DNA from: Cepaea nemoralis | Lineage: Eukaryota; Mollusca; Gastropoda; Stylommatophora; Helicidae | Direction: 5' to 3' | Assembly: GCA_014155875.1 (NCBI GenBank) | Contig: JACEFZ010014488.1 | Coordinates: forward strand, 62,001-126,000 | DNA length: 64,000 nt | Part shown: piece after piece, positions 12,101-33,362 of the stretch | Position numbering within the stretch: the first letter of the stretch is position 1 | Layout: each line of letters opens with the position of its first letter | The notes under the pieces: generated by a model | What the model saw: the letters and a program-made list of their open reading frames with translations, nothing else | The model's database searches: none | What the model was told of the DNA's origin: nothing | Translations under genes and position numbers: made by a program

Positions 12101-15100
12101 TCTTCTTACCACTAAACAATACCCTTCATATTGTTTCAGAACATACCCACACAAGACTGTATTTTAACAAATGATAAAATAAAACATTTAATACAGAAAT
12201 TGTCACGTGTGTGTGTGTGCACTGTTTGCGTGTGGAAATATGTAGTATTTTCTATGGTGTATGCGAGAATAGATTAGTGAGCTCAGGATCGTTCTTCATC
12301 ATGTTAGGCCATGCCACATCACACCACAGTAAGTTCAGAACAGGTCTCACCGAATGAAGCCTCAATCCGGACAATGGTTGACTTCTTGGAGTTAATCATA
12401 TATATAGTCTGGGTGACTGTTCTCCACTACTGAATATGGTATACCAAAGTCCACAAGTTCAGAACCCCCGATGTATTTAATGTGTCTATAACGATCCTGG
12501 AACCTAGGAATCTCGGCACTTCTCTCACACGACTCCCCAAGAAACAAACTGATGATGTCTGTTCGAGTAAGTTCCTCCTGTATGTTTGTACAAGTTTACT
12601 GAACAGGTTTCCTCACCATTATGCCTTCTCTATATAATAATGTTATTGTCCTGAGAAGTAATCACCATTATACCTTCTCTATATAATAATGTTATTGTTC
12701 TGAGAATTCATCACTGTTAATATGAATCCGCCTTTTCAGTACCTCAGTCACTGCCAACCAGCCCTTTTTATGTTAAACACTCTGGGCTTTGATGAGGCCA
12801 TGATTGGTGGAACGGTGTCCCATTGCCGACACCATTTAACATAACTTCACTCAGTGTGACTGCTATTTTTCCTCCTCTCCCAGCTGTCCTTAATTTCTCC
12901 GGTACAGTAAAATATCACTCAGTGTGACTGGCTTTGTCTACACCTCGTAGTAATACTTCCTTTCTTTTATACCGTTGAACCTGTAGAGAATAGAACATTC
13001 GGTGAGAGAAAAACCCTATTCCAATCCACTATATGTGATTATAGGCCAAAGGCCACTCAGACATGTGTCCTAGTTAATCTAGAACTACCCTCTGACATCA
13101 AGGCAGAGTCGTTCGTCACATTTGGGTGATAAGGGAAAGGAAAGACCAAACGGAAAAACACAGGAGCCCCAGTAGGCCTCACTACCGGAATATCCCACCA
13201 TTTACATTTCCCCTATTCCCCCAGCCATCCCATTACACTGGTCTTACCCTGCCGAGTGAAATGATATATAACTCTACCTCTTTTAAGCTAGGCATCAGCC
13301 AGCTGCGGCCGACGCTCCTAGATTACTTTCTCCCAACACACTATCACTAAGTTCCAGTCATAACTCTATTTATAAATTAACTACCTTATGCTAGTGTTCC
13401 GAGTTTGAATTCACAATTCACAACATGAAAAACACTGTCCCTTGTTTCCAGACAACATGGGGACACTGTGAATCCATTCTCCATTCGAATTGGAACACAC
13501 AAACACTCCCGTTATCTGTAATTCGTAAACAGACTGAACACAGATTCCGTCAACTCCCCCCAACCAAAATGTTGCACGAGTGACGTCACTCACGTGACCG
13601 GACTTCAATCAAGAAAGCACCGCCTCCCCCTTCTCCATTCTGCTGAGATCCGGGCAAACAGAATGCCGAATTCCTTTGATGCCGGGCAAATTAACCTGCC
13701 GCCAATTTTCTTTGATTGGGGGACTTCTCAGGGAATCCCGGTCGTGTTTGAAACTGGGAACATATTTACCGACATCAAATAGTTGTGGCGCCTAGCGATA
13801 GCGGCTTTCAGGCCTTTCATCAATCTGGATCGAAATCCTTCAGTATTATGTGACAGGCATACAGAGCTGTCATAGCATTAGAACATGTGTTTTATGCAAA
13901 AGGAAATAACACTTGTACCAAACTTACAATATGTAACTCTAATGCTAAATCAGTACTGCTGTAGGGATAAGAAAAATGGAGAATGACTAAAACAGTTACT
14001 AGTAAGCTACAAACATTCGTTAACTGGTGCTTTCACAGAATAGAAGGAACCACTATTGTGAAGTCATGGAGGAGAAGTAAACAGATCCTAGCAAATCAAG
14101 TAGTGAGAGAAGGACACTAGCACACTGAGATCACCTGACAGCAGCATAACTAGCCAGTCCTGGCTCTGGAACACATAGGGCAAACACACAGTAGAGATGG
14201 AACACATAGGGCAAACACACAGTAGAGATAGCTACCAGTATATTGAACAGAGCATTAGAGGCAGACATAAATATGGAGGACATATAGGGAGCTGCAGGGC
14301 ATAGCACAGGATAGGACTGGTATTTGTCCATCAAGTGTTGTGATGACCATTCATTTCATCCAGTGAGGTAGAACGGTTTGAGCCATGAGTTCTAAGATGG
14401 CTGGCAAGGCCTGTTTGGGCTCAAAATGTTCCAATCCAAACCAGTGTAGTGAGAATGTTTCTCAAATCTAACCACAACCTCACATCTGTGTGGTGAGAAT
14501 GTTTCTCACATCTGTGTGGTGAGAATGTTCCTCACATCTGTGTGGTGAGAATGTTCCTAATATCTGTGTGGTGAGAATGTTCCTCACATCTGTGTGGTGA
14601 GAATGTTCCTCACATCAGTGTGGTGAGAATGTTCCCCCATATCTGTGTGGTGAGAATGTTCCCCCATATATGTGTGGTGAGAATGTTCCTCACATCTGTG
14701 GTGAGAATTTCCTCACATCAGTGTAGTAAGAATGTTTCCCATATCTGTGTGTTGAGAATGTTCCCCACATATTGTGAAATATCATTGCTGAAGACCATGT
14801 GTCTTGTGTCCACAGAAAGCCTTGTTACATGGGAGCCAGTCAGACGAGCTGCTGCAGTTGCCTTCAGGTGAGAACACGATGCTTTCATCAGGCAGGACAT
14901 CTCTCTCATCACCAAATCATTCTCCATCCATGACCAGTTCCTTTGCCTCATACATTGTCCTGCCCAGGCTGTCTTCACTGTCCTGTCCTGCCCCAGCTGT
15001 CTTCACTGTCCTGTCCTGCCCCTGCTGTCTTCACTGTCCAGTGTCCATCTACATGCTGGTCAACCCCCAGCCTCTTCTACCAGGCCCTACACCTTCCATC

Positions 15101-18100
15101 ACCGTTCTCTCCCAGCCCCTGTGGTTTTTAATATGGCCAATGGTAGGTCAGCATGGCTGAATGGATAAGAACATGTGTTATTAAACATACCGTGTGCTGA
15201 GGTAAGGGGTTAAACCCCTACAGTGGACAGTTGGACTAAAATGTTGACCTGTCGTCCTTGACTTGGGGACGTAAATTACAAGTACCTCTGAAGTCAGAGT
15301 GGGTTCGTCTGATGGCGAGGGACACTGTTAATAGGGAAAGCTAATCCACACACAAAATTCAGTCCAGCACAACTAGAAGTAGCATGTATGGACTATGCTT
15401 GTGTTCAAAGCGCGCAAGTGCAAAAAGAAAATATGGCCAATGTATTTCAGTTCTGAGGCATGTTGTTGACCTATGATGTTCAGATTCTTGTAGGATGTCA
15501 GTTCTGAGGCATATTGATGACCTACAATCTTCAGATTCTTGTAGGATGTCAGTTCTGAGGCATGTTGTTGACCTACGATGTTCAGATTCTTGTAGGATGT
15601 CAGTTCTGAGGCATATTGTTGACCTACGATGTTCAGATTCTTGTAGGATGTCAGTTCTGAGGCATATTGTTGACCTACGATGTTCAGATTCTTGTAGGAT
15701 GTCAGTTCTGAGGTATGTTGTTGACCTGCGATCTTCAGATTCTTGTAGGATGTCAGTTCTGAGGCATATTGTTGACCTACGATGTTCAGATTCTTGTAGG
15801 ATGTCAGTTCTGAGGCATATTGTTGACCTACGATGTTCAGATTCTTGTAGGATGTCAGTTCTGAGGTATGTTGTTGACCTGCGATCTTCAGATTCTTGTA
15901 GGATGTCAGTTCTGAGGCATATTGTTGACCTACGATGTTCAGATTCTTGTAGGATGTCAGTTCTGAGGCATATTGATGACCTACAATCTTCAGATTCTTG
16001 TAGGATGTCAGTTCTGAGGCATGTTGTTGACCTACGATGTTCAGATTCTTGTAGGATGTCAGTTCTGAGGCATATTGTTGACCTGCGATGTTCAGATTCT
16101 TGTAGGATGTCAGTTCTGAGGCATGTTGTTGACCTATGATGTTCAGATTCTTGTAGGATGTCAGTTCTGAGGCATATTGTTGACCTACGATGTTCAGATT
16201 CTTGTAGGATGTCAGTTCTGAGGCATATTGTTGACCTACGATGTTCAGATTCTTGTAGGATGTCAGTTCTGAGGCATGTTGTTGACCTGCGATCTTCAGA
16301 TTCTTGTAGGATATCAGTTCTGAGGCATATTGTTGACCTACGATGTTCAGATTCTTGTAGGATGTCAGTTCTGAGGCATATTGTTGACCTACGATGTTCA
16401 GATTCTTGTAGGATGTCAGTTCTGAGGTATGTTGTTGACCTGCGATCTTCAGATTCTTGTAGGATGTCAGTTCTGAGGCATATTGTTGACCTACGATGTT
16501 CAGATTCTTGTAGGATGTCAGTTCTGAGGCATATTGTTGACCTAGGATGTTCAGATTCTTGTAAGATGTCAGTTCTGAGGCATATTGTTGACCTACGATG
16601 TTCAGATTCTTGTAGGATGTCAGTTCTGAGGCATGTTGTTGACCTATGATCTTCAGATTCTTGTAGGATATCAGTTCTGAGGCATATTGTTGACCTACAA
16701 TCTTCAGATTCTTGTAGGATGTCAGTGTTTGTCTTCACAGCCTGAGATTCCCAGAATTCTGTCACATTTAAGATGAAGGGATGATAATGACAACCAGAAA
16801 AAACAAACAGTAGATGCATTTGTGGCTAGCTGTATTCACTGCTTCTTCAAAGCAGCACATATTTATGCTACTGTAATCTATTACACTGTCCTTCATGTTA
16901 ATTTGCTCAGTACATACTCACATATGAAATGTTAATTGTCATGTCATAAATCTAGCTTTTTTTGCCACCCATGAAATGGTTGTGACAGTTCCACCTTAAC
17001 TGCCATAACCACATAAGAAATGTACATATAGATATTTCACAGGGTGTCAGTTTTCTCATTGTTGGAACTGTCAGGTCAGCTGCAAGAAGACATAGCTGGG
17101 GCATTAGGATTGCTGTACTGTAAATATAGTCTGCTGTTGTGTATCCACACTAGTGGTAGAGGGTTGACATGTTGTATATCCACACACTAGTGGTAGAGGG
17201 TTGACATGTTGTATATCCACACACTAGTGGTAGAGGGTTGACATGTTGTATATCCACACACTAGTGGTAGAGGGTTGACATGTTGTATATCCACACTGTA
17301 ATGATAGAAGGCTGACATGTTGTATATCCACACTGTAATGATAGAAGGCTGACATGTTCTGTATCCAAACTATAGTGGTAGAGGGTTGACATGTGTATCC
17401 AGACTGAAGTGGTATAGGGTTAACATGTGTATCCACACTCAAGTGGTAGAGGACTGGCTTGTTGTGTATCCACACTAGTGGTAGAGGGTTGGCATGTTGT
17501 GTATCCACACTAGTGATTAAGGGCTGGCATGTTGTGTATCCACACTAGTGGTAGAGGGCTGGCATGTTGTGTATCCACACTGTAGTGGTAGAGGGCTGGC
17601 ATGTTGTGTATCCACACTAGTGGTAGAAGGTTTACATGTGTATCCACACTAGTGGTAGAGGGTTGACATATATGTATTCACACTGTACTCATAGATGGGC
17701 TGACATGTTGTGTATCCACACTAGTGGTAGAGGGCTGGCATGTTGTGTATCCACACTGCAGTGGTAGAGGGTTGACATGTTGTGTATCCACACTGTAGTG
17801 GTAGAGGGTTGACATGTTGTGTATCCACACTAGAGGTGGAGGGGTAACATGTTGTGTATCCACACTGTAGTGGTAGAGGGTTAACATGTTGTGTATCCAC
17901 ACTGTAGTGGTAGAGGGTTGACATGTTGTGTATCCACACTGCAGTGGTAGAGGGTTGACATGTTGTGTATCCACACTGTAGTGGTAGAGGGTTGACATGT
18001 TGTGTATCCACACTATAGTGGTAGAGGGCTGACATGATGTGTATCCACACTGTAGTGGTAGAGGGTTGACATGTTGTGTATCCACACTAGAGGTGGAGGG

Positions 18101-21100
18101 GTGACATGTTGTGTATCCACACTAGAGGTGGAGGGGTGACATGTTGTGTATCCACACTAGAGGTAGAGGGTTGACAAGTTGTGTATCCACACTAGAGGTG
18201 GAGGGGTGACATGTTGTGTATCCACACTGTAGTGGTAGAGGGTTGACATGTTGTGTATCCACGCTGCAGTGGTAGAGGTTGACATGTTGTGTATCCACAC
18301 TGTAGTGGTAGAGGGTTGACATGTTGCGTATCCACACTAGTGGTAGAGGGTTGACATGTGTATCCACACTGTAGTGGTAGAGGGCTGACATGATGTGTAT
18401 CCACACTGTAGTGGTAGAGGGCTGACATGTTGTGTATCCACACTATATTTGTAGAGGGTTGACATGTTGTGTATCCACACTATATTGGTAGAGGGTTAGC
18501 ATGTTGTGTATCCACACTATATTGGTAGAGGGCTGGCATGTTGTGTATCCACACTAGTGGTAGAGGGCTGGCATGTTGTGTATCCACACTGTAGTGGTAG
18601 AGGTGTGACATGTTGTGTATCCACACTGTAGTGGTAGAGGGTTGACATGTTGTGTATCCACACTGTAGTGGTAGAGGGTTGACATGTGTATCCACACTGT
18701 AGTGGTAGAGGGTTGACATGTGTATCCACACTGTAGTGGTAGAGGGTTGACATGTTGTGTATCCACACTGTAGTGGTAGAGGGGTGACGTGTTGTGTATC
18801 CACACTAGAGGTGGAGGGGTGACATATTGTGTATCCACACTAGAGGTGGAGGGGTGACATGTTGTGTATCCACACTAGAGGTAGAGGGTTGACATGTTGT
18901 GTATCCACACTAGAGGTGGAGGGGTGACATGTTGTGTATCCACACTGCAGTGGTAGAGGGTTGACATGTTGTGTATCCACACTGTAGTGGTAGAGGGTTG
19001 ACATGTTGTGTATCCACACTGTAGTGGTAGAGGGTTGACATGTTGTGTATCCACACTGCAGTGGTAGAGGGTTGACATGTTGTGTATCCACACTATATTG
19101 GTAGCGGGCTGGCATGTTGTGTATCCACACTAGTGGTAGAGGGCTGGCATGTTGTGTATCCACACTGCAGTGGTAGAGGGTTGACATGTTGTGTATCCAC
19201 ACTGTAGTGGTAGAGGGCTGGCATATATGTATCCACACTAGTTGTAGAGGGGCTGACATGTGTATCCACACTGTAGTGGTAGAGGGGCTGACATGTGTAT
19301 CCACACTGTAGTGGTTGCACCCCAAGCGAGAATCATACCCCAGGTTCGAAAGCAAAAAGAAGAAGAAAATAGGCATACGACATCACAACATACTTTGAAG
19401 GACAATACACAGAACCCTTTGTTACTGACGAAAGACTGTAAGGGGCTGACATGTGTATCCACACTGTAGTGGTAGAGGGGCTGACATGTTGTGTATCCAG
19501 ACTGTAGTGGTAGAGGGGCTGACATGTTATGTATCCAGACTGTAGTGGTAGAGGGACTGACATGTTGTGTATCCAGACTGTAGTGGTAGAGGGACTGACA
19601 TGTTGTGTATCCAGACTGTAGTGGTAGAGGGGCTGACATGTTGTGTATCCAGACTGTAGTGGTAGAGGGGCTGACATGTTGTGTATCCAGACTGTAGTGG
19701 TAGAGGGGCTGACATGTTGTGTATCCAGACTGTAGTGGTAGAGGGACTGACATGTTGTGTATCCAGACTGTAGTGGTAGAGGGGCTGACATGTGTATCCA
19801 GACTGTAGTGGTAGAGGGGCTGACATGTGTATCCAGACTGTAGTGGTAGAGGGGCTGACATGTTGTGTATCCAGACTGTAGTGGTAGAGGGTTGACATGT
19901 TGTGTATCCACACTGTAGTCATAGAGGGTTGACATGTTGTGCATCCACACTGTAGTGGTAGAGGGGCTGACATGTTGTGTATCCACACTGAAGTGGCAGA
20001 GGGTTGACATAGTCCAGTGACTCAAGTGCATTGTAACGTAGGTATTGGCAGGGTATTCTGTGTCAGACAGTCAGGAGATTTGAACCAGACAAAGCCGTAC
20101 ACAAACCTGTTATCTTGTATGTAGACTGGAGAAAGTCAAAGGCTAAGGAAAGCAAAACAAAATGCTTGTGTCAATAAGATGTACAGAGCCACAGGCTTAA
20201 CGAAAGCTTTATGATGAAATAATATTGGATGTTGAAACACATGGGGTGCAGTGTCGTATTATTATTTTTATCAACACTTCCAGGTTACAAAACTGTAGAG
20301 TTGACCGATGAACAGAAGAGAAGACGTCAAGAAAAGGCAAGAAGGAGACGGCAACAAGCAAATGAAAAAATTGAAAATGATAAAGTAAGTCGTACAGTTT
20401 TGTGTGCTGACTCTATTTCAGGGTTTTCGTTTCTCCATGGCTTCAGTTGGTAGAAAGAATTAAATGATTTTGACATTTAGCTAGAATGGAACAAGATCAA
20501 CTAGCAGCCAGAACGTTCTACATGATTGCATCAGGATACACATAAACTGTTTGCTCAATTAACATTAAAAGCTGAGAACACATATATTGTTTGTTGAATT
20601 AACATTGAAAGCTGAGAACACATATATTGTTTGTTGAATTAACATTGAAAGCTGAGAACACTATATTGTTTGTTGAATTAACATTGAAAGCGGGACGCAG
20701 AGGTGTTTCCAAGGCACCAGGGCCAGGTTCTATACTGGCCAAGACCTACCAACACGTCCTAGTCGTGCGTCCTGGGCAACAGGCCCCGTCAGGGTCCTGG
20801 CTAACGTAGTAGGATCGCTGATTCTTCCGAAGTCGGAGAGTATCTGCCTGCACGGCGAGGAGCCACCAGTCTGCACACCAATAAGCCAAATATGGGACAA
20901 TGGATACTCACGCAAACCTCAGTCCGGTATGACATCACACTGATGTTGGACAACAGGATGTCTTCATCCGACATACAGGACTTCACGCTGGAGTTCACAG
21001 CCAGCAAACGTAAGCAAGCAACTTGAAAGCTGAGAACACTATATTGTTTGTTGGATTAACACTGAAAGCTGAGAACACTATATTGTTTGCTCAGTTAACA

Positions 21101-24100
21101 TTGAAAGCTGAGAACACTATATTGTTTGCTCAGTTAACACTGAAAGCTGAGAACACAATATTGTTTGCTCAGTTAACATTGAAAGCTGAGAACACTATAT
21201 TGTTTGCTCAGTTAACATTGAAAGCTGAGAACACTATATTGTTTGCTCAATTAACATTGAAAGCTGAGAACACCTATATTGTTTGCTCAGTTAACATTGA
21301 AAGCTGAGAACACTATATTGTTTGCTCAATTAACACTGAAAGCTAAGAACACATGTATTGTATTGTCTCCTCCATAATCACTAAAAGCTAAGAACACATG
21401 TATTGTTACCTCCATAATCATTAAAAGCTAAGAACACAAGTATTGTATTGTTTCCTCCATAATCACTAAAAGCTAAGAACACATGTATTGTTTCCTCCAT
21501 AATCACTAAAAGCTAAGAACACATGTATTGTATTGTTTCCTCCATAATCACTAAAAGCTAAGAACACATGTATTGTATTGTTTCCTCCATAATCACTAAA
21601 AGCTAAGAACACATGTATTGTATTGTTTCCTCCATAATCACTAAAAGCTAAGAACACATGTATTGTTTCCTCCATAATCACTAAAAGCTAAGAACACATG
21701 TATTGCTTCCTCAATTGTCATTGAAAGCTGAGAACACATACATTCTTTCCTGCAGAATCTAACTGTTGATAAACTTCTGAAGAAGCAAGACAGCAAGAAC
21801 AAAAGGGTTGCCAAGGTAGGCAGTGTTTGTTTGTGTGTCTTTGTTTTGTTAGAATTCATTTGTGGCTTCACCAGGTGGATTACACTGCATTTTATTTTCC
21901 CAAGCATTTATATGAAATCTGCCTTTCCTGTCTTAATATTGCCTCCAGCCTCCCTACGAGGAAGCAGATTTGTGTCACAAAAAGCATCACACATTGTACA
22001 AACTTAAGTGACGACACCCAGCAGTCTCAGAAAATATGACATGTGTGAACTGAAATTGAGCAGGGAGACACCCAAGTGTGGCGTAGGTCTCTAATATATG
22101 TCAAAGTGTCAATTGGTGAAATTGGAGCACATACAGAACGAGGCTATGCGGGTAATTCTGGGATGCACCAGAGACACCCAAGTGGTGTGTATGCATTACA
22201 TCCTTGGTTTTCCGACTGTTGCTGGTAGGCTCAAGGAGATGCAGGCGAAGGCATACCTCAGAGTAGCTGCAAGCACAGATCACCTGTTGCATGAGGCACT
22301 GGATGCAGTTAAGGGTCAGCGACTGATAAAGAGGGAAATCATGGATGGCTCAGGCGGAGGATACGATCAGACGGGTGTGCATCTTGGAGAACATTAGGCG
22401 AGGAGAGGAGTGGGTCAAGAGTGCCAGCGGAGCAGTCAGACTTCTGCAGAGTTATAATCACATTGAGCCGGGAGTGCAGGGAGTGGCCAGCAGGGGCCAC
22501 GGAAGTGGAAATCCAGCAACTAATTCAGGATAATGCTCGCCCAGGTAATGTGATTATATACACAGATGGTTCGGTGTTGAGAGGTAGTAGAAGTGTCTGG
22601 GGGTTCTTGGCAAAGGCTAATGGTCGACGTTTGGTGCAGGAGAGCCTGGCATATGATACCACAACACATCTAGCTTAAGAATGGAGGTGGAGGCGGTCAG
22701 TGCAGCTTTCCGCTGGATGGAGAATACGATACACACACACATCGTGATTGTAACTGACTCAGAAAGCATGCTGAGTAGGGTGAAGACAGACAAGCTTCGT
22801 GCATAGTGGCTTGGTTTGCTTCGGAAGTCACGGGTGACAAGCATCGTCTGGATCTTTTCTCCGGGGCCTGCTGGTATGCTGGGGAATGAACAGGTGGACA
22901 GATTGGCTGGGTCTGCAAAACTTGGTGGAGTATTGATGCATGACAAGGCAGACGTGGTTGCGGACTTGTGGGAGCACGTGTACACCTCGGAGGAGCAAAT
23001 GGATCACCATGGTCTGGCAAGAATGCGACAGCGAGGAGTGACGAGGGGATCTGGCCGACGATTGACGTTCAGAGGAAAAGCGAGACGGACATATAATCAG
23101 ATTGCTACTGGTACTATTAGTGTTGGAACTCTTCGCTGGCTGCTGAGGATGGGGACGGAGAGCTTATGGGAATGCCCCGAATGCTGTGATGTCGGTTCCT
23201 AAATCAATCAATCAATGAATCTCCGGGATGGTTAACCCGGTCAACAAATGCCCGCAGAAGTCGGATGTGTCGGCCTAACAGCGCAAGAACGCAGCTTTGC
23301 TGTAAACAGGCACAACACAATCACATCCGGCAAAAAAAACAAAAAACTCTGGATGAACGCAGAAGAAGAATCAATCAATCTAATATATGTCAGTGAGACT
23401 TTCATGTGTGGTGTAGGTATCTAATACAAGGAGCTTCTCATAAGTCTTTAGCCTGACCATAAAGGAGCAGGCGGAGAACATTGAAATTTGGCACATGAAT
23501 CGCTCATTCAATTTGTAATATAAATATGAATTATGAATTTCCCTCCTCAACTGGTTTTCCCGATATGGTGCATGGTACAACACACCCTATTGACCAGATC
23601 TGCACATTCAACGGTTTGTCAGAACAATGGAGAAATCGGACACCAGGACTGTGATAAAGTTCTTGATGTTACAGGAAAAACACCTACAGAAATACATAGG
23701 GAGATGGAGCCAGTGTTTGTGGAAGTCTGTCCTTCGTAGGCTTCTGTAAAAAAAATTGGTGTTTGCAGTTTAAGTGTGGCCATTCTTAATTTGCTGATCT
23801 GCCAAGGTCAGAATGACCGTCCTCAGAGTGCAATGATGCAAATGCTGCAAAAGTGAAGAAAATCATAGACCAGTATAGGAAAATGACAATTGCAGAGATA
23901 TCGGGTTCAGCAAAACTGTGTAAGAGTACAGTTTTTAGAATTTTACACAACAGACTGAACATGAGAAAAGTGTGTGCCCGCTGGGTCCCGCGCCTGCTGA
24001 CATGTGAACAGAAACAAACACGGGTTGATTGCTGTGGCCAGTTGCTCAACATGTGGCGGTCAAAAAACATGTTGACGACCATGGTGACGGTAGATGAGAC

Positions 24101-27100
24101 TTGGATTCTCCATTATGACCCAGAATCCATAATTGCCAGCATGCAATGGAAAACCGCAGGCTCGCCAACACAAGTCAAGAGCACAATAATCTGCAAGAAA
24201 AGTGATGCTGACTGTTTTTTTTAAAAATTGGTATGTCAAAGGTGTCATATTGAAAGATTACATGCTTCATGGCAACACGGTTAATGGGCAGTACTATGCA
24301 GATCTCCTTATCAAACTAAGAAAGGCTGTGACCAGAAAATGAGGGATAGCGCGTACGCAAATTCTGCTTTTGCTTCAACACCACGCGCCCTCCCATAAAG
24401 CACGGCTTGTGCTGCAAACTGCCAACGATTTGAATATTGAAATTCTTTCACACCCACCATATTCTTCAGATTTGGCTCCATCAGACTTTTTTCTTTTCTC
24501 AAATCTTAAAAAACAGCTGAAAGGAAATCGTTTTGACAGTGACGAAGATGTCATACCGGCTTGTGATAACTGGTTTAGTTAGAAAAATAGGTTGTTTTAT
24601 TCTTAAGGTCTTTGAGTCAGAGAGACCCCCAAGTGTGGTTTAGGTCTTTAATATATGAGTCATGAAGACCCCCAAGTGTAGTTTAGGTCTCTAATATATG
24701 AGTCATGGAGGCCCCCAAGTGTGGTGTAGGTCTCTAATATATGAGTCATGGAGGCCCCCAAGTGTGGTGTAGGTCTCTAATATATGAGTCATGAAGACCC
24801 CCAAGTGTGGTGTAGGTCTCTAATATATGAGTCATGGAGACCCCCAAGTGTGGTGTAGGTCTCTAATATATGAGTCATGGAGATCCCCAAGTGTGGTGTA
24901 GGTCTCTAATATATGTCATGGAGACCCCCAAGTGTGGTGTAGGTCTCTAATATATGAGTCATGGAGACCCCCAAGTGTGGTGTAGGTCTCTAATATATGA
25001 GTCATGGAGACCCCCAAGTGTGGTGTAGGTCTCTAATATATGAGTCATGGAGACCCCCAAGTGTGGTGTAGGTCTCTAATATATGAGTCATGGAGACCCC
25101 CAAGTGTGGTGTAGGTCTCTAATATATGAGTCATGAAGACCCCCAAGTGTGGTGTAGGTCTCTAATATATGAGTCATGGAGACCCCCAAGTGTGGTGTAG
25201 GTCTCTAATATATGAGTCATGGAGACCCCCAAGTGTGGTGTAGGTCTCTAATATATGAGTCATGGAGGCCCCCAAGTGTGGTGTAGGTCTCTAATATATG
25301 AGTCATGGAGGCCCCCAAGTGTGGTGTAGGTCTCTAATATATGAGTCATGGAGGCCCCCAAGTGTGGTGTAGGTCTCTAATATATGAGTCATGGAGGCCC
25401 CCAAGTGTGGTGTAGGTCTCTAATATATGAGTCATGGAGACCCCCAAGTGTGGTGTAGGTCTCTAATATGTGAGTCATGCTCATTTGTTACCAGGGCTCT
25501 TCAGGGAAGCAAATAATAGCACCGCTGCAACCTGCCAAGCATTTTGTAGGAGGCGGCTACAGAGGGTTGACATGGGGCTGGCGGCCTCATGCCATTGAAG
25601 ACTTAGCTGCAAATTTCAACCAATCAGCAAGGCCCTGGCTAGTTGCCTCTGATTGTTGCCCCTCATAGTTGTATTTTTCCCCTTATAGTTGTATGTTTCC
25701 CCTCATAGTTGTATGTTTCTCCTCATAGTTGTATGTTTCCTTGTGCAGGCTCGAGGTGGCCTCTGTGTTTTTCCCTCATAGTTGTGTGTTTCCATATGCA
25801 GGTTTGAGGTAGCCTCTGTGTTTCTCCTCATAGTTGTATGGTTTCATATGCAGGCTCAAGGTGGCCTCTGTGTTTCCCTTCATAGTTGTATGTTTCTGTG
25901 TGCAGGCTAGAAGTGGCCTCTGTTTTCCTTCATAGTTGTATGTTTCTGTGTGCAGGCTCGAGGTGGCCTCTGTGTTTCCCCTCATAGTTGTGTTTCCATG
26001 TGCAGGCTCGGGGTGGCTTCTGTATTTCCCCTCATAGTTGTATGTTTCTGTGTGCAGGCTCGAGGTGACCTCTGTGTTTCCCCTCATAGTTGTATGTTTC
26101 CCCTCATAGTTGTATGTTTCCCCACATAGTTGTATGTTTCCCCTCATAGTTGTATGTTTTCATATGCAGGTTCGAGGTGGCCTCTGTGTTTCCCCTCATA
26201 GTTGTATGTTTCCATGTGCAGGCTCGAGGTGGCTTCTGTGTTTCCCCTCATAGTTGTATGTTTCTGTGTGCAGGCTCGAGGTGACCTCTGTGTTTCCCCT
26301 CATAGTTGTATGTTTCCCCTCATAGTTGTATGTTTCCATGTGCAGGCTCGAGGTGGCTTCTGTGTTTCTCCTCATAGTTTTATGTTTCTGTGTGCAGGCT
26401 TGAGATGGCCTCTGTGTTTCCCCTCATAGTTGTATGTTTCTGTGTGCAGGCTCGAGGTGACCTCTGTGTTTCCCCTCATAGTTGTATGTTTCCATGTGCA
26501 GGCTCGAGGTGACCTCTGTGTTTCCCCTCATAGTTGTATGTTTCCATGTGCAGGCTCGAGGTGGCCTCTGTGTTTCCCCTCATAGTTGTATGTTTCCATG
26601 TGCAGGCTCGAGGTGGCCTCTGTGTTTCCCCTCATAATTGTATGTTTCCATGTGCAGGCTCGAGGTGGCCTCTGTGTTTCCCCTCATAGTTGTATGTTTC
26701 CATGTGCAGGCTCGAGGTGACCTCTGTGTTTCCCCTCATAGTTGTATGTTTCCATGTGCAGGCTCGAGGTGGCCTCTGTGTTTCCCCTCATAGTTGTATG
26801 TTTCCATGTGCAGGCTCGAGGTGGCCTCTGTGTTTCCCCTCATAGTTGTATGTTTCCATGTGCAGGCTCGAGGTGACCTCTGTGTTTCCCCTCATAGTTG
26901 TATGTTTCCATGTGCAGGCTCGAGGTGACCTCTGTGTTTCCCCTCATAGTTGTATGTTTCCATGTGCAGGCTCGAGGTGACCTCTGTGTTTCCCCTCATA
27001 GTTGTATGTTTCCATGTGCAGGCTCGAGGTGGCCTCTGTGTTTCCCCTCATAGTTGTATGTTTCCATGTGCAGGCTCGAGGTGACCTCTGTGTTTCCCCT

Positions 27101-30100
27101 CATAGTTGTATGTTTCCATGTGCAGGCTCGAGGTGACCTCTGTGTTTCCCCTCATAGTTGTATGTTTCCATGTGCAGGCTCGAGGTGGCCTCGGTGTTTC
27201 CCCTCATAGTTGTATGTTTCCATGTGCAGGCTCGAGGTGGCCTCTGTGTTTCCCCTCATAGTTGTATGTTTCCATGTGCAGGCTCGAGGTGGCCTCTGTG
27301 TTTCCCCTCATAGTTGTATGTTTCCCCTCATAGTTGTATGTTTCCATGTGCAGGCTCGAGGTGGCCTCTGTGTTTAACCTCATAGTTGTATGTTTCCCCT
27401 CATAGTTGTATGTTTCCATGTGCAGGCTCGAGGTGACCTCTGTGTTTCCCCTCATAGTTGTATGTTTCCATGTGCAGGCTCGAGGTGGCCTCTGTGTTTC
27501 CCCTCATAGTTGTATGTTTCCATGTGCAGGCTCGAGGTGGCCTCTGTGTTTCCCCTCATAGTTGTATGTTTCCCCTCATAGTTGTATGTTTCCATGTGCA
27601 GGCTCGAGGTGGCCTCTGTGTTTCCCCTCATAGTTGTATGTTTCCCCTCATAGTTGTATGTTTCCATGTGCAGGCTCGAGGTGGCCTCTGTGTTTCCCCT
27701 CATAGTTGTATGTTTCCATGTGCAGGCTCGAGGTGGCCTCTGTGTTTCCCCTCATAGTTGTATGTTTCCCCTCATAGTTGTATGTTTCCATGTGCAGGCT
27801 CGAGGTGGCCTCTGTGTTTCCCCTCATAGTTGTATGTTTCCCCTCATAGTTGTATGTTTCCATGTGCAGGCTCGAGGTGACCTCTGTGTTTCCCCTCATA
27901 GTTGTATGTTTCCATGTGCAGGCTCGAGGTGGCCTCTGTGTTTCCCCTCATAGTTGTATGTTTCCATGTGCAGGCTCGAGGTGGCCTCTGTGTTTCCCCT
28001 CATAGTTGTATGTTTCCCCTCATAGTTGTATGTTTCCATGTGCAGGCTCGAGGTGGCCTCTGTGTTTCCCCTCATAGTTGTATGTTTCCCTTCATAGTTG
28101 TATGTTTCCATGTGCAGGCTCGAGGTGGCCTCTGTGTTTCCCCTCATAGTTGTATGTTTCCATGTGCAGGCTCGAGGTGGCCTCTGTGTTTCCCCTCATA
28201 ATTGTATGTTTCCCCTCATAGTTGTATGTTTCCATGTGCAGGCTCGAGGTGGCCTCTGTGTTTCCCCTCATAGTTGTATGTTTCCCTTCATAGTTGTATG
28301 TTTCCATGTGCAGGCTCGTGGTGGCAAGCGCAGCAACAGCCCTAGAGTTGTGTACAGAAACTCACTGGACAGGATCACAATCTGCATGCCACCTGATGTT
28401 GCCTTTCCCCTGGTGCCTCAGACTGCCAGGTGAGTCTTGCTGTTATTGTTGCTATTGATATTGTTGCTGTTGACAATGTTGTTATTCTTGCTGCTGCTGA
28501 CTTGTTATTGTCCCAACTCGACTATCTTAGATGCTGGATATTGAGCAGTCCGTGTGACTGTACCTGCTGGAAATTATGCTGTGTGCAGGATTGTTATCTT
28601 AATGACACCATTATCCTTCTCTGCCTGAAGTCTCCTCGGTGTGGTGCTGGTGTATGGGTGCTGCAGGGATCTTGTGCTGCAGGGGAAAAATGAGATGAGA
28701 TTTGAGCCATGTCAAAATCAAATACCATTCTGTGTTCTCCAAACTGTAGTCTGAAGCTCAGCTCTCTGATGTTGGTGGGCTAGGAGTGACAGAGATTAGA
28801 TATTTCTGTACAAATCCTGCATGTCCTTTTCAATACATGGCAGTCATCCCCAGGTAGATTTACTAGGCAATTGTACATTCAGTGTCCTGCCATGGCTTGC
28901 TCTGTGGTGAAGGATTTATTGACGCAAGTTATAATCCCGCAGACCGCCTTCAAAACATAGCTGCTGGCGATGTGGTAGAAGACCGCCTTGTGTTGGTTTT
29001 CATACAATGATAGGTGTGCCGGTCATCCAGAAAGCAGTGGAAACTACTGAACGTAAACTTGTCAAAAAATCACAAACAGTAAAGAAAAAAATGCTGGAGT
29101 TGACTGTGACGTCCTGTAAAGGATGTGCAAGTAACTTGTAACCTTGCCATTGCTGTCTGAATAAGGAGTCATTGTTTAAGTGTGGTGTTGGGAGTGAACA
29201 CACTTGTCCACCATCAGTCTATAACATGCAAGTAACTTGTAACCTTGCCATTGCTGTCTGAATAAGGAGTCATTGTTTAAGTGTGGTGTTGGGAGTGAAC
29301 ACACTTGTCCACCATCAGTCTATAACATGCAAGTAACTTGTAACCTTGCCATTGCTGTCTGAATAAGGAGTCATTGTTTAAGTGTGGTGTTGGGAGTGAA
29401 CACACTTGTCCACCATCAGTCTATAACATGCAAGTAACTTGTAACCTTGCCATTGCTGTCTGAATAAGGAGTCATTGTTTAAGTGTGGTGTTGGGAGTGA
29501 ACACACTTGTCCACCATCAGTCTATAACATGCAAGTAACTTGTAACCTTGCCATTGCTGTCTGAATAAGGAGTCATTGTTTAAGTGTGGTGTTGGGAGTG
29601 AACACACTTGTCCACCATCAGTCTATAACATGCAAGTAACTTGTAACCTTGCCATTGCTGTCTGAATAAGGAGTCATTGTTTAAGTGTGGTGTTGGGAGT
29701 GAACACACTTGTCCACCATCAGTCTATAACATGCAAGTAACTTGTAACCTTGCCATTGCTGTCTGAATAAGGAGTCATTGTTTAAGTGTGGTGTTGGGAG
29801 TGAACACACTTGTCCACCATCAGTCTATAACATGCAAGTAACTTGTAACCTTGCCATTGCTGTCTGAATAAGGAGTCATTGTTTAAGTGTGGTGTTGGGA
29901 GTGAACACACTTGTCCACCATCAGTCTATAACATGCAAGTAACTTGTAACCTTGCCATTGCTGTCTGAATAAGGAGTCATTGTTTAAGTGTGGTGTTGGG
30001 AGTGAACACACTTGTCCACCATCAGTCTATAACATGCAAGTAACTTGTAACCTTGCCATTGCTGTCTGAATAAGGAGTCATTGTTTAAGTGTGGTGTTGG

Positions 30101-33100
30101 GAGTGAACACACTTGTCCACCATCAGTCTATAACATGCAAGTAACTTGTAACCTTGCCATTGCTGTCTGAATAAGGAGTCATTGTTTAAGTGTGGTGTTG
30201 GGAGTGAACACACTTGTCCACCATCAGTCTATAACATGCAAGTAACTTGTAACCTTGCCATTGCTGTCTGAATAAGGAGTCATTGTTTAAGTGTGGTGTT
30301 GGGAGTGAACACACTTGTCCACCATCAGTCTATAACATGCAAGTAACTTGTAACCTTGCCATTGCTGTCTGAATAAGGAGTCATTGTTTAAGTGTGGTGT
30401 TGGGAGTGAACACACTTGTCCACCATCAGTCTATAACATGCAAGTAACTTGTAACCTTGCCATTGCTGTCTGAATAAGGAGTCATTGTTTAAGTGTGGTG
30501 TTGGGAGTGAACACACTTGTCCACCATCAGTCTATAACATGCAAGTAACTTGTAACCTTGCCATTGCTGTCTGAATAAGGAGTCATTGTTTAAGTGTGGT
30601 GTTGGGAGTGAACACACTTGTCCACCATCAGTCTATAACATGCAAGTAACTTGTAACCTTGCCATTGCTGTCTGAATAAGGAGTCATTGTTTAAGTGTGG
30701 TGTTGGGAGTGAACACACTTGTCCACCATCAGTCTATAACATGCAAGTAACTTGTAACCTTGCCATTGCTGTCTGAATAAGGAGTCATTGTTTAAGTGTG
30801 GTGTTGGGAGTGAACACACTTGTCCACCATCAGTCTATAACATGCAAGTAACTTGTAACCTTGCCATTGCTGTCTGAATAAGGAGTCATTGTTTAAGTGT
30901 GGTGTTGGGAGTGAACACACTTGTCCACCATCAGTGCACAGGAAGTTTAAGAGTGCGTGCTCTTATCCTTGTGATCACACTGGCCTCTTGTGAAAAAACG
31001 TGAAGATAGACACTGTATTCTGAAGTGTTCGGCCGTCACATGTTCTGTAGTCAAGTAAGGACGCTTGTACACACGTTCAGGTGCTGGGGCATGTCTTACT
31101 AGACTGACATCTGTATACACCAGTCGGTCAAGTGGTCAGTGTCACACTGGCCGCCTTCACTTCTCAAAACATTTCCTGGTACTCCCTTGGAGGCTGGGTC
31201 ATGTGGAACCCCAGTCCAGTTGTAACTATCTGCTTCATGCTTTCTAACCTACAACATAATGAGATGGGGAACCCCAGTCCAGTTGTAACTATCTGCCTCA
31301 CATATTCTAACCTACAACATAATGAGATGGGGAACCCCAGTCCAGTTGTAACTATCTGCCTCACATATTCTAACCTACAACATAATGAGATGGGGAACCC
31401 CAGTCCAGTTGTAACTATCTGCCTCACATATTCTAACCTACAACATAATGAGATGGGGAACCCCAGTCCAGTTGTAACTATCTGCCTCACATATTCTAAC
31501 CTACAACATAATGAGATGGGGAACCCCAGTCCAGTTGTAACTATCTGCCTCACATATTCTAACCTACAACATAATGAGATGGGGAACCCCAGTCCAGTTG
31601 TAACTATCTGCCTCACATATTCTAACCTACAACATAATGAGATGGGGAACCCCAGTCCAGTTGTAACTATCTGCCTCACATATTCTAACCTACAACATAA
31701 TGAGATGGGGAACCCCAGTCCAGTTGTAACTATCTGCCTCACATATTCTAACCTACAACATAATGAGATGGGGAACCCCAGTCCAGTTGTAACTATCTGC
31801 CTCACATATTCTAACCTACAACATAATGAGATGGGGAACCCCAGTCCAGTTGTAACTATCTGCCTCACGTATTCTACCCTACAACATAATGTCTTGTCAC
31901 CTTTCCATCCCAGAACATTGTCTGCTACCCGTTTTTTTTATGAGGTTGGATGGACCTCAGATCTGATGTCATTATGGCTGCAGTAGTAGGTAGTGTCTGG
32001 TGTAGGTAGTGACTGGGTCTAGTTTAAAGCTGCCCTGGTTAGAAATAGCTCTACTGTGACCAGGGGTCAAACCCAGGACCACTGTATTGGTCATAATTGC
32101 TCTCACATCTACTGTGTCAGGTCTCCTAGGTAGTGGTAGTTCTCTGAGAATGTCAAAGGCTGGGCACTGTTATCTGGATGAAACATTGAAGTTTACCTCT
32201 GAAGTGGGACGCAGAGGTGTTTCCAAGGCACCAGGGCCGGGTTATATACTGGCCAAGACCTATTGACGCGTCCTCGCCGAGCGTCCTGGGCAACAGGTCC
32301 CTTCGGGGTCCTGACTAAAGTCAGTAGGATCGCCGATTCCTCCAAAGTCGGAGAGTGTCTGCCTGTACGGTGAGGAACCACCAGTCTGCACACCAATAAG
32401 CCAGACATGGGACAACGGATACTCACGCAAACCTCAGGTCCTGTATGACATCACACTGATGTTAGACAACAAGATGCCTTCATCCGACATACAGGACTTC
32501 GCATTGGAGCTCAAGCCAATGAACACAAGCAAGCAAGCAACCTCTGAAGTATACACATGTCTGGGTGGCTACATTTCTGTGGAGAGTGAAAGGAAGAAAG
32601 ACAAAGGCAAGAGAGAGATGTAGTTTCTCTGACAAATTAAGAAACTCTTTTCTATACATCTTACCCTGGAGTTTGGCTATGGAGAAATAAGAGATAATTG
32701 ATCCCAGTGATAAGTTGAGATTGACTCTTCTGTTCTGTTATATTTACTTATATATATTACTTATATATATTACTTATATATATAGATCTGATCCGTCTCT
32801 GTGGCCAAGGGCTTGCAAACGTGGTTTGTGAGCCCGTATACCGGGGTTTGAAACACAGCAGTGCTGGTTTTTTCGAAAAAGGTATAGAAGCCGGTCGTTC
32901 AGAAAGCAGTGGCAAACTACTGAATGTAAAATTTGCCCAGGAATCACGAACAGCGAAAATGCTGGGGTTGACTTGCTACGTCCTTGTGAAGGACATGCAA
33001 CTTAATGTTTTTGTTCTTTTTGTTTAGATCTGATCCCAAAAGGCCAGCTTTGTTGTGTGAATAGATGGGGGAAGAATGGAGAGGTTGAGTAAGTGGTGGG

Positions 33101-33362
33101 GGAGAGAGAGACAGAGAGGGGGAAGTGGAGAGAGAGAGAGAGAGAATCATATATTTCTATGACAAGTTCAGATACTGATATATTCGGCTTGTATACCCCC
33201 TCTAGGCCGTACCCGCAGGCTGAGCTGTGTGGTGTGGAGGGCTGCCGAAACAAGAAGACCTCCGTCTGCTCCCAGACTTTAGTTCCTGTATGCAGTTTGC
33301 AGTGTTACAAGAGAAACCTGGCCATCTGGGCAGCTTCACAAACTTCAGACAGCCGTAGTTAG
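6101..33362 (+). CDS. INO80B: INO80 complex subunit B, nine coding exons
   Basis: Predicted nuclear subunit of the INO80 ATP-dependent chromatin remodeller. Coding exons are 6101-6128, 7806-7950, 8292-8338, 11191-11333, 14816-14867, 20284-20384, 21756-21815, 28314-28429 and 33206-33362. They total 849 nt, or 282 residues plus stop. Every junction is GT/AG and keeps the frame. Domains in order: acidic start MDFYDDSPG; a Lys/His-rich stretch (~11-27); SIKLKLKIGG (~43-52); an acidic DEERWLDALEKG block (~90-101); the basic PAPA-1-like region, ELTDEQKRRRQEKARRRRQQ (~144-163), to about residue 225; and a C-terminal HIT-type zinc finger with Cys 239, 244, 252, 260 and 264. This order matches the INO80B (PAPA-1) family. 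The protein is somewhat short, as I recall vertebrate members at ~350 residues. The start is the first ATG of a frame that continues into exon 2. An upstream non-coding exon cannot be excluded. Introns are unusually rich in minisatellites and mobile elements. Confidence 0.92.
6691..6990 (+). mobile_element. tRNA-derived SINE, family E (INO80B intron 1)
   Basis: The head GTCCGCATGGCCGAATGGAT resembles a tRNA Ser/Leu box A, with a decayed box B (GTTATCAGTTCATCCCC). The body with AAAATGTTGACCTGTCGTCC and TACCTCTGAAGTCAGAG ends in GCGAGCGAGCGC and an A-run. It is homologous to 15143-15429. The ends are less certain than in that copy. Confidence 0.75.
7806..7950 (+). CDS. INO80B: INO80B coding exon 2
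   Basis: The acceptor is TTTTTAAAATCAG|AACC. It encodes residues 10-57, with KKHKKHKKHKHKK (basic, likely nuclear or DNA contact) and SIKLKLKIGG. The donor AA|GTGAGT leaves two bases, completed by exon 3 to an Asn codon. Confidence 0.9.
8292..8338 (+). CDS. INO80B: INO80B coding exon 3
   Basis: A 47-nt microexon between CATCCCTCAG| and |GTATAT. It encodes residues 58-73 (VMSVVQSGSVVGTPE) in the only frame that fits both neighbours. It is recognised mainly by phase fit, because the linker is poorly conserved in the family. Confidence 0.75.
8472..8703 (-). mobile_element. tRNA-derived SINE, family B (INO80B intron 3)
   Basis: On the - strand it starts CTCCGTGGTGAAGTGGTCAA (box A) with GGGTTCGATTC (box B), and ends in CATATGGGATAAAACATGG. 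The perfect 11-bp duplication ACTCCTGAGTT at 8461-8471 and 8704-8714 sets the limits. This is the best preserved family B copy. Confidence 0.85.
8979..10170. repeat. 63-bp minisatellite, ~19 copies (INO80B intron 3)
   Basis: The unit contains CAGTATGTCAGCCTGGTCCA, CATCCACTTGACATAGTAG and CTCCCATAAACCTTG. Because 63 is a multiple of three and the units lack stops, a 387-codon + strand frame and a 162-codon - strand frame run through it. The encoded repeat (SAWSITHPLDIVVPPINLV) shows substitution without codon-position bias, so I read it as non-coding. Confidence 0.95.
10425..10622 (+). mobile_element. Probable tRNA-like SINE
   Basis: Box A-like TGGTTGAGTGGG and box B-like GGGTTAAATCCC are followed by a body ending in CAGACAGACAGACA. 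No second copy in the window and no clear target duplication, so confidence is moderate. Confidence 0.45.
10848..10936. repeat. ~45-bp direct duplication
   Basis: Two copies of CCTGGACAGC(G/T)GCCTTACAGCC continuing to TACTAGTTACAATT/ACGATT. It lies in INO80B intron 3. Confidence 0.7.
11191..11333 (+). CDS. INO80B: INO80B coding exon 4
   Basis: The acceptor is GTGTCTGCAG|GGAAGG and the donor CAG|GTCAGT. It encodes residues 74-121 with the acidic block SDEERWLDALEKG and an ALLTARQ end, both typical of INO80B upstream of the PAPA-1 region. This is one of the strongest family matches in the gene. Confidence 0.95.
11688..11849 (+). mobile_element. SINE-like element, family D (INO80B intron 4)
   Basis: It starts GTCCTAAGAAACTCCCGGGA, like the copy at 40656, and ends in a GAA tail. 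The hairpin GTCCG-A-run-GTCCGGAT is weaker here because of substitutions. Flanking duplication not clear. Confidence 0.75.
11862..11965 (+). mobile_element. LINE reverse-transcriptase fragment
   Basis: The frame reads DYTYLGSNVDQEGGTHKDS, a typical motif downstream of the RT catalytic site in LINE proteins, followed by a stop. Only ~35 codons remain. Confidence 0.5.
11970..14150. other. INO80B intron 4, no gene recognised
   Basis: Mostly unique sequence. There is a ~50-bp direct duplication at about 12615-12715 (TATATAATAATGTTATTG) and two copies of CACTCAGTGTGACTG (12850, 12915). No flanked coding block is conserved enough to call. It could hold an old LTR or DNA element, but I see no terminal repeats. 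Confidence 0.4.
14159..14230. repeat. 35-bp direct duplication
   Basis: Two adjacent copies sharing GGAACACATAGGGCAAACAC and CACAGTAGAGAT. Confidence 0.85.
14480..14775. repeat. 26-bp minisatellite, ~12 copies
   Basis: Unit GTGTGGTGAGAATGTTCCTC plus ACATCT, with GT-rich drift at the right end. The array stops about 40 bp before the exon 5 acceptor. Confidence 0.9.
14816..14867 (+). CDS. INO80B: INO80B coding exon 5
   Basis: The acceptor is GTGTCCACAG|AAAGCC and the donor TCAG|GTGAGA. It encodes residues 122-138 (KALLHGSQSDELLQLPS), continuing the ALLTARQ helix of exon 4. Phase 0 in and phase 1 out both fit. Confidence 0.88.
15143..15429 (+). mobile_element. tRNA-derived SINE, family E (INO80B intron 5)
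   Basis: The head GTCAGCATGGCTGAATGGAT is followed by box B-like GGGTTAAACCCC. The body matches 6691-6990. A 13-bp duplication, AATATGGCCAATG, flanks it (15130-15142 and 15430-15442). Confidence 0.88.
15447..16725. repeat. 51-bp minisatellite, ~25 copies (INO80B intron 5)
   Basis: The unit contains CAGTTCTGAGGCATATTGTT, GACCTACGATGTTCAGATTC and TTGTAGGATGT. The length is a multiple of three, so a 486-codon - strand frame and 163-214-codon + frames cross it. Both are judged spurious. Confidence 0.95.
17125..20010. repeat. ~37-bp minisatellite, ~75 copies (INO80B intron 5)
   Basis: Unit GTATCCACACTGTAGTGGTA plus GAGGGTTGACATGTTGT, with 1-4-bp length variants. Left of 19315 most units read CCACAC. 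Right of 19440 most read CCAGAC with an extra G (AGGGGCTGAC). A ~125-bp unrelated insert lies between. Confidence 0.95.
19315..19440 (-). mobile_element. Short insert inside the 37-bp array
   Basis: Non-repeat sequence with AAGAAGAAGAAAATAG and, on the - strand, a tRNA-3'-like CTTTCGAACCTGGGG. It looks like a truncated SINE, but no second copy was found here. Confidence 0.35.
20284..20384 (+). CDS. INO80B: INO80B coding exon 6 (PAPA-1 region, first part)
   Basis: The acceptor is CACTTCCAG|GTTAC and the donor AAA|GTAAGT. It encodes residues 139-172 with ELTDEQKRRRQEKARRRRQQ, the basic helix that opens the PAPA-1-like conserved region. Confidence 0.95.
20560..21350. repeat. 39-bp minisatellite (INO80B intron 6)
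   Basis: Unit GCTGAGAACACTATATTGTT plus TGCTCAGTTAACATTGAAA. It is split by the family C element at 20692-21022 and merges on the right into the related 40/45-bp array. Confidence 0.9.
20692..21022 (+). mobile_element. SINE-like element, family C, inside the 39-bp array
   Basis: The same GGGACGCAGAGGTG start and AAGC tail as at 2512. An 8-bp duplication of array sequence, TTGAAAGC (20684-20691 and 21023-21030), shows that it inserted into a pre-existing repeat. Confidence 0.85.
21351..21755. repeat. 40/45-bp minisatellite abutting the exon 7 acceptor
   Basis: Unit AAGCTAAGAACACATGTATT, GTTTCCTCCATAATCACTAA. The last unit runs directly into the splice acceptor (CATTCTTTCCTGCAG|AATCTAACT). 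TTTCCT-CCAT-AATCACT in the array lines up with TTTCCT-GCAG-AATCTAACT at the exon. Confidence 0.9.
21756..21815 (+). CDS. INO80B: INO80B coding exon 7 (PAPA-1 region, second part)
   Basis: A phase-0 exon of 20 codons (NLTVDKLLKKQDSKNKRVAK) between TTTCCTGCAG| and |GTAGGC. The N-x-T-V/I-x-x-L-L-K pattern followed by basic residues fits the middle of the PAPA-1-like region. Confidence 0.92.
22062..22103. repeat. Detached unit of the 43-bp minisatellite
   Basis: One unit (CCCAAGTGTGGCGTAGGTCT, CTAATATATG) is separated from the main array at 24600-25480 by a LINE and a mariner insertion. Confidence 0.8.
22104..23379 (+). mobile_element. 5'-truncated LINE with RT end and RNase H (INO80B intron 7)
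   Basis: Flanked by the 13-bp duplication CTAATATATGTCA (22091-22103 and 23380-23392). It encodes the end of the RT region (QNEAMRVILGCTRD, KAYLRVAAS) and then an RNase H domain with YTDGS, MEVEAV, VTDSES and GNEQVDRLAG, spread over several frames. At least two in-frame stops or frameshifts (near 22675 and 22805) disable it. The 3' end is an ATCA-repeat tail into which a family D element inserted. It is closely related to the copy at 1-504. Confidence 0.88.
23221..23372 (+). mobile_element. SINE-like element, family D, in the LINE tail
   Basis: CTCCGGGATGGTTAACCCGG start and GAA tail. It is bounded by ATCAAT-type sequence on both sides, so it went into the tetranucleotide tail of the LINE. 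The hairpin arms ATCCGG and the diverged CTCTGGAT surround an A-rich loop. Confidence 0.82.
23405..24600 (+). pseudogene. Mariner-like transposase pseudogene (INO80B intron 7)
   Basis: A DD34D-type mariner transposase relic in pieces, from the ATG at about 23627 to TAG at 24580-24582. Recognised blocks are a helix-turn-helix (MTIAEISGSAKLCKSTVFRI), TVDETWILHYDPE (first catalytic Asp present), LLQHHAPSHKARL (the second Asp, normally in a DNAPSH motif, is His here) and HPPYSSDLAPSDFFLFSNLK. Several stops and frameshifts separate them, so it is inactive. It sits inside the 43-bp minisatellite. Clean terminal inverted repeats were not resolved. Confidence 0.88.
24605..25478. repeat. 43-bp minisatellite, ~20 copies (INO80B intron 7)
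   Basis: Unit GTCATGGAGACCCCCAAGTG, TGGTGTAGGTCTCTAATATA, TGA. Copies differ mainly at GGAGA/GGAGG and one 4-bp deletion. Confidence 0.95.
25665..28313. repeat. 52-bp minisatellite containing a splice-acceptor copy, ~44 units
   Basis: The unit is CATAGTTGTATGTTTCCATG, TGCAGGCTCGAGGTGGCCTC, TGTGTTTCCCCT. Some units carry an extra ~20-bp CATAGTTGTATGTTTCCCCT. The last unit is the real exon 8 acceptor: TTTCCATGTGCAG|GCTCGTGGTGGC. I counted 44 upstream copies of the TGCAGGCTCGAGGTG-type core. Reading from any decoy acceptor meets a stop within about 30 codons. Confidence 0.95.
28314..28429 (+). CDS. INO80B: INO80B coding exon 8 (PAPA-1 region, end)
   Basis: The acceptor GTGCAG|GCTCGT is the last of a tandem series. 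The donor is CCAG|GTGAGT. It encodes residues 193-230, including ARGGKRSNSPRVVYRNS and the proline/valine-rich ITICMPPDVAFPL found before the zinc finger in this family. Phase 0 in, phase 2 out. Confidence 0.95.
28900..29125 (+). mobile_element. SINE, family A (degraded; INO80B intron 8)
   Basis: The central domain (CCGGTCATCCAGAAAGCAGT, GGAAACTACTGAACG) and 3' part (GTTGACTGTGACGTCC) are clear. The tRNA-like head is poor. Its 3' end (GTGCAAGTAACTTG) forms the left edge of the 101-bp array. Confidence 0.6.
29126..30935. repeat. 101-bp tandem array, ~18 near-identical copies (INO80B intron 8)
   Basis: Unit starts TGCAAGTAACTTGTAACCTT and ends CACCATCAGTCTATAACA. By eye the copies are letter-identical, unlike every other array in the window. 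Confidence 0.97.
31210..31890. repeat. 63-bp tandem array, ~10.7 copies (INO80B intron 8)
   Basis: Unit GGGAACCCCAGTCCAGTTGT, AACTATCTGCCTCACATATT, CTAACCTACAACATAATGAG, ATG. Nearly perfect copies. The multiple-of-three length opens 284 (+) and 234 (-) codon frames, judged non-coding. Confidence 0.95.
32206..32539 (+). mobile_element. SINE-like element, family C (INO80B intron 8)
   Basis: Flanked by the 11-bp duplication ACCTCTGAAGT (32195-32205 and 32540-32550), with an AAGC tail. Very similar to the copy at 2512. Confidence 0.88.
32795..33024 (+). mobile_element. tRNA-derived SINE, family A (INO80B intron 8)
   Basis: Flanked by the 12-bp duplication TAGATCTGATCC (32783-32794 and 33025-33036). 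Head GTCTCTGTGGCCAAGGGCTT, box B-like GGGTTTGAAAC, intact central domain, T-rich tail. It ends ~180 bp before the exon 9 acceptor. Confidence 0.88.
33206..33362 (+). CDS. INO80B: INO80B coding exon 9 (HIT zinc finger and stop)
   Basis: The acceptor is TACCCCCTCTAG|GCCG. It encodes residues 231-282. The zinc finger shows C-x4-C (239, 244), Cys 252 and C-x3-C-Y (260, 264), with KRNLAIW after it, matching INO80B-type HIT fingers. The last residues (SQTSDSRS) and the TAG stop fall in the first unit of a 43-bp repeat, so this short tail is probably lineage-specific. Confidence 0.95.

Follow-up and report, generated by a model that had tools for sequence, protein, structure and literature searches.

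The acceptor array at INO80B exon 8

How does the spliceosome find a 3' splice site when dozens of nearly identical sites stand in front of it? The INO80B gene of the land snail Cepaea nemoralis poses this question. The gene lies on a 64,000-nucleotide (nt) stretch (GenBank assembly GCA_014155875.1, contig JACEFZ010014488.1, positions 62,001 to 126,000 of the forward strand), referred to hereafter as the window, in which 44 decoy acceptors precede the true acceptor of coding exon 8. The best explanation, to which we give a probability of roughly 0.7, is a minisatellite straddling the intron-exon junction together with exon definition that picks the 3'-most copy.

Coordinates are collected in Table 1. 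Between positions 25601 and 28340 we counted 45 GCAG|G sites, the 44 decoys and the true acceptor at 28314, spaced at 52 bp (29 intervals), 72 bp (11), 50 bp (2), 53 bp (1) and 112 bp (1). Each unit consists of a branch-point motif, a pyrimidine tract, CAG and about 12 exon-like bases; 20-bp subrepeats (TGTTTCCCCTCATAGTTGTA) are nested inside, and the 72-bp unit is the 52-bp unit plus one further subrepeat. Tandem Repeats Finder (TRF) reported 49.5 copies of a 52-bp unit. When a 26-mer from the unit was searched against the 3.47-Gb genome with up to 3 mismatches, all 41 matches fell inside this array, and the reversed pattern used as a control gave none genome-wide. A dispersed repeat or transposon inserted beside exon 8 is ruled out by this confinement to one locus. 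The original prediction of about 44 decoys, made from the sequence of the window, thus agrees with the count and with the repeat nature found by TRF and the 26-mer search, and its concern that the array might recur at unrelated loci is answered by the same 41 matches. The interval first proposed, 25665..28429, needs two corrections: the left edge of the array is at 25645, and the last part, 28314-28429, is exon 8 itself. The numbering of the exon was correct, as nine coding exons were counted.

Table 1. Positions of the array, of INO80B and of related features.
Feature	Position	Strand	Remarks
Junction minisatellite, 52/72-bp units	25645..28313	+	44 decoy 3' splice sites; found at no other locus (26-mer search)
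Left edge of the exon 8 array	25645..25668	+	GCCTCTGATTGTTGCCCCTCATAG
Decoy with extended identity to the true site	28118..28122 (its first bases)	+	Identity spans 112 bases of the intron and exon +1..+5
Decoy acceptor, 144 nt upstream of true site	28170..28241	+	48 additional in-frame residues, stop-free, if used
Decoy acceptor, 72 nt upstream of true site	28242..28313	+	24 additional in-frame residues, stop-free, if used
INO80B gene	6101..33362	+	9 coding exons, single open frame
INO80B coding exons 1-5	6101-6128, 7806-7950, 8292-8338, 11191-11333, 14816-14867	+	
INO80B coding exons 6-9	20284-20384, 21756-21815, 28314-28429, 33206-33362	+	Stop included
INO80B coding exon 7	21756..21815	+	NLTVDKLLKKQDSKNKRVAK; from gene model and retrocopy joint
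INO80B coding exon 8	28314..28429	+	116 nt; donor CAG|GTGAGT; begins ARGGKRSNSPR; 7|8 joint visible in retrocopy
Intron 7	21816..28313	+	6498 nt; also RNase-H-like and mariner-like fragments, 43-bp array
Second INO80B acceptor array, ~40-bp units	20538..21755	+	Ends at exon 7 acceptor; split by insertion ~20692-21023
L075, processed INO80B retrocopy	G000:C6698:43950-45950	reverse	Intron-free; part of 5' untranslated region included
L027, L067, L068 (myosin)	G000:C25496:234504-241500		Exon donor is first unit of a 34-bp array, ~80 further GGTGAGT

The units are not equally diverged. Against the unit consensus, units 1-10 averaged 3.5 mismatches per 42 nt, units 11-27 averaged 1.06 and units 28-44 averaged 0.12, in an ungapped comparison that scores indels as mismatches and so overstates the divergence of the oldest units. 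Since the exon-proximal units are near-uniform and the distal ones varied, turnover takes place at the exon side of the array. This gradation also bears on whether the copy number was inflated, or the junction misassembled, in what PMC8022989 describes as a long-read draft of a heterozygous genome. The array is 98% repetitive at its 3' end, which would favor such an artefact; besides the graded differences along the array, however, exon 8 is intact and has an independent counterpart in the retrocopy, which lies on a different contig, and we regard an artefact as very improbable, with array copy number taken as assembled.

Origin of the array

The nine coding exons joined give a coding sequence of 849 nt, encoding 282 amino acids plus the stop. 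The top protein matches were the land snails Bradybaena similaris, Candidula unifasciata and Arion vulgaris; the Bradybaena protein, also 282 amino acids, is 91% identical without gaps. At the joint of exons 7 and 8 the product reads VAK|ARGGKRSNSPR and aligns with all three relatives free of insertions, and no extra residues were present at this joint in any of 24 aligned protein rows.

A genome-wide search with a 27-mer from the start of exon 8 (up to 3 mismatches) found two loci, this gene and the processed retrocopy L075. The retrocopy is 96.2% identical to INO80B over 795 aligned bases, having lost 15 bases and gained 1, in a piece that stops within exon 9. All eight exon joints are contiguous in L075, including 6|7 and 7|8, each of which lies behind an array in INO80B. 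Its 7|8 joint reads GCCAGG|GCACGTGGTGGC, the product expected from use of 28314. L075 is direct evidence that one mature mRNA was joined at 28314 and that no decoy was used; the possibility, raised beforehand, that exon 8 begins elsewhere in cDNA does not hold for this natural cDNA.

Of the 12 bases that open exon 8, each decoy shares 8 to 11, much as had been predicted from the unit. A typical decoy, GCTCGAGGTGGC, equals the exon (GCTCGTGGTGGC) at 11 of 12 positions, for which the chance at one fixed place is about 2e-6. Exon position +6 is T both in exon 8 and in L075, while the decoys have A (43 of 44) or G (1 of 44). Because exon and retrocopy share the T, it is ancestral and the founder of the array carried a change. 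On the grounds of protein conservation, the retrocopy joint, the +6 base and the single genomic locus, the array is, as judged from these comparisons, a derivative of the INO80B intron 7-exon 8 junction, and the earlier proposal that the real exon boundary is the last unit of an array grown from the splice junction is borne out by the same four observations. The left edge of the array resembles the unit's GCCTCTGTGTTTCCCCTCATAG and may be a remnant of the original intron copy that seeded the unit; the breakpoint has just two bases (GC) in common with the exon, a weak match. The oldest units differ from one another by 14% (ungapped, indels included) versus 3.8% between L075 and the gene, which hints that the array is older than the retrocopy, though minisatellites may mutate faster.

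Choice of the last acceptor

Sequence around the AG does not distinguish the true site. The decoys were equal to it in 33 of 44 cases over -20..+3 and in 32 of 44 over -26..+5. A yUnAy motif occurred within 50 nt upstream of the AG (at -15 or further) at all 45 sites, its place being -24 or -22 in the units inspected; this rules out a branch point that would set the last unit apart, and with it the suggestion that a branch point exists only near the end of the array. Local sequence cannot single out the last site, and since local signals are equal the selector must be a feature lying past about exon +5, or the order in which the sites come. It follows that 33 of the 44 decoys are indistinguishable from the true site to a model that reads only the surroundings of the AG; at least one mRNA was nevertheless joined correctly.

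The course of events we propose begins with a tandem duplication that took in the final 40-50 nt or so of intron 7 and the opening 12 or so nt of exon 8. As the copies would sit on the intron side of the joint, the coding exon would be left unchanged and the array could expand cheaply, by unequal exchange or slippage; near-neutrality of the array is what we infer from this. The spliceosome would then take the 3'-most copy, and exon definition is the likeliest selector: the acceptor nearest the exon 8 donor, across the exon, would be paired with that donor because the exon is short (116 nt), the donor strong and the introns long (6.5 and 4.8 kb; intron 8 measures 4776 nt). Decoys 4 and further would delimit pseudo-exons of more than 300 nt. 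The exon 8 donor was the strongest of six INO80B donors scored, with a duplex to the U1 tail computed at -12.2 kcal/mol, and PMC9225289 reports that, where the flanking introns are large, preference goes to the sites nearest each other across the exon.

Several points weigh against this explanation. According to the same study, competition between 3' sites of equal strength under exon definition showed an upstream preference that was strongly reduced and not clearly reversed (PMC9225289), so proximity alone may not exclude the decoys at -72 and -144. Exons of 188 and 260 nt would result from use of these two (28242 and 28170), and neither length is prohibitive. L075 is a single molecule and may have formed before the array existed.

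Reading frames were followed from all 44 decoys. A premature stop is predicted for 42, within 30 codons for 33 and at 31-75 codons for 9. The original prediction that any decoy would give a stop within about 30 codons holds for those 33, fails for the 9 with later stops, and fails for 28170 and 28242, which are stop-free; a general rule that every decoy gives an early stop is ruled out. These frames would suit tolerated mis-splicing, that is, appreciable use of decoys with most products lost to nonsense-mediated decay, so that INO80B output would be reduced by the array and dosage would vary with array length. The 33 decoys locally identical to the true site point the same way. The sole natural cDNA seen, L075, was nevertheless spliced correctly, and INO80B is intact and conserved; we consider this account possible, though on balance unlikely.

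The two stop-free decoys could instead yield isoforms with 48 or 24 extra residues, an alternative acceptor system resembling the donor minisatellite of human IFI6, in which downstream repeat units serve as donors (PMC4526556). Both are in frame and would give exons of 260 and 188 nt, but no relative in the 24-row alignment has the insertion and L075 lacks it as well, which makes such isoforms improbable. Removal of the intron in steps, by recursive splicing, was considered because a weak donor-like GAG|GTGRCC lies 7 nt after each acceptor. The array holds GAG|GTGGCC 25 times and GAG|GTGACC 12 times, with U1 duplexes of -5.9 and -6.7, near those of the real donors of exons 2 and 6 (-5.7 and -5.6). 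Recursive splicing needs the donor at the junction itself, however, where CAG|GTT is found in 2 units only, and most real INO80B donors are stronger (up to -12.2), so that we hold it to be very improbable.

With arrays of this sort, natural length variants could replace designed constructs for asking what picks among equal sites: order, distance to the next donor, or exonic signals.

Arrays at other splice junctions

INO80B itself carries a second array, at the exon 7 acceptor. Five listed units have GTTTGCTCAG decoys; the exon-adjacent units read CCAT or CAAT there. The insertion that splits this array, at ~20692-21023, recurs in the window by translation, e.g. near 2428 and 32190.

Myosin and kinesin loci, picked from lists before their flanks were seen, were surveyed for comparison. 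For myosin, 65 of 319 candidates were scored, 69 myosin-head matches were listed and 40 of the 69 were examined; for kinesin, 40 of 122 matches were picked and 6 examined. Three of the 40 myosin loci had no callable acceptor (L028, L029, L063) and one no callable donor (L029); the acceptors of L044, L056 and six others were placed by hand, and L040 and L042 are near-identical. The exon 3 acceptor and the exon 1 and exon 3 donors of INO80B were left out of the survey tests.

Arrays containing AG were present at 2 of 43 callable acceptors (37 myosin, 6 kinesin), both in myosin loci. In L048 a 41-bp array places CAG decoys ahead of the true acceptor (by alignment, score 35); the 40-bp array of L064 has GCTTTCAG decoys versus CTGTCCAG (by eye). 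Tandem arrays containing GT were found at 3 of 45 donors (39 myosin, 6 kinesin): L027, L069 and L073. A further locus, L043, has one additional copy of the exon end and donor. The L027 array, 83 copies of a 34-bp unit, is the mirror image of the exon 8 case. Its three joined pieces contain 83 GGTGAGT, including the true site and one beyond the array; 77 of these sites read TGG|GTGAGTGA, with a U1 duplex of -11.2 versus -10.8 for the true GAG|GTGAGTCT. The kinesin arrays, recognized by eye, have units of 30 bp (L069, 652-966) and 34 bp (L073, reverse strand, 584-888) and extend past the pieces examined.

Arrays were not enriched at junctions. At myosin loci a score of at least 36 was reached by 3 of 44 acceptors versus 24 of 185 intronic controls, and at INO80B a score of at least 40 against the site's own upstream DNA was reached by 2 of 7 acceptors versus 45% of 1500 random window positions. 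Junction arrays therefore look like the chance straddling share of dense minisatellites. The share of sequence taken up by tandem arrays is 45% in the window, 29% in 120 kb from other parts of the same contig, and 8% in six pieces of other contigs that total 43.6 kb. With arrays filling so much of the window, and junction arrays present elsewhere, no single cause specific to the exon 8 array is needed. On the simplest view, minisatellites arise at high density and some of them straddle joints; where the copies are on the intron side the exon remains whole, and such arrays survive for that reason. The arrays beside other genes suggest a recurring by-product of minisatellite growth. It is a tentative proposal, with somewhat less than an even chance of being right, that junction-straddling minisatellites are general in this snail. 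They would affect a few per cent of junctions (acceptors and donors), their decoys would number up to about 80 and equal or exceed the true site in strength, and the copy nearest the exon would always be the one used. Exons were recognized by their protein, so the exon-proximal place of the true copy in every case is partly built into the survey. If such arrays are indeed general, the genome would be a natural large-scale experiment in exon definition, in which a site's place with respect to its partner takes precedence over its local sequence.

Other features of the window

Just upstream of the exon 8 array, 24613-25479 holds 20 copies of a 43-bp unit, adjoined by a mariner-like transposase fragment at ~23817-24579 (named by eye). 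In intron 8, a 101-bp unit is repeated 17.9 times over 29126-30935 with 100% identity, either a very recent expansion or an assembly effect.

Comparison with known systems

A limited literature search found no mollusc case of such junction arrays. Minisatellite-class units also occur in the variable internal tandem repeats at exon-intron boundaries of human duplicated genes, where new splice patterns are possible; those repeats differ in averaging 30-bp units in 4 copies and were mostly assessed for novel introns, not for tens of acceptors (PMC2812944). Human IFI6 is alike in that a minisatellite at an exon edge offers competing splice sites, but its repeat is on the donor side and its downstream units are truly used and make isoforms (PMC4526556), whereas decoy use in the snail is putative. 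Arrays like those of the snail show how minisatellites and splice junctions can grow together and are raw material for alternative exons.

The closest counterpart is the amphioxus mirage, described in PMC3087553 and PMC3902484 as a minisatellite-like duplication of an intron-exon boundary, 5' or 3', that leaves splicing undisturbed, with units of 10-72 bp in Adh3 and 150-160 bp in globins. Like mirages, the exon 8 array consists of junction-spanning repeats, many of whose units carry AG/GT signals; its unit, the 3' end of the intron plus 12 exon-like bases, is in register with the true joint, and at 52 and 72 bp it is of mirage size. The host is a mollusc and not a cephalochordate, and the decoys are more numerous, 44 here and about 80 donors in the snail myosin gene versus the 6 and 3 units given for two amphioxus BflGb6 haplotypes. 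The exon 8 array is of the same kind as the amphioxus mirages, with unusually many decoys.

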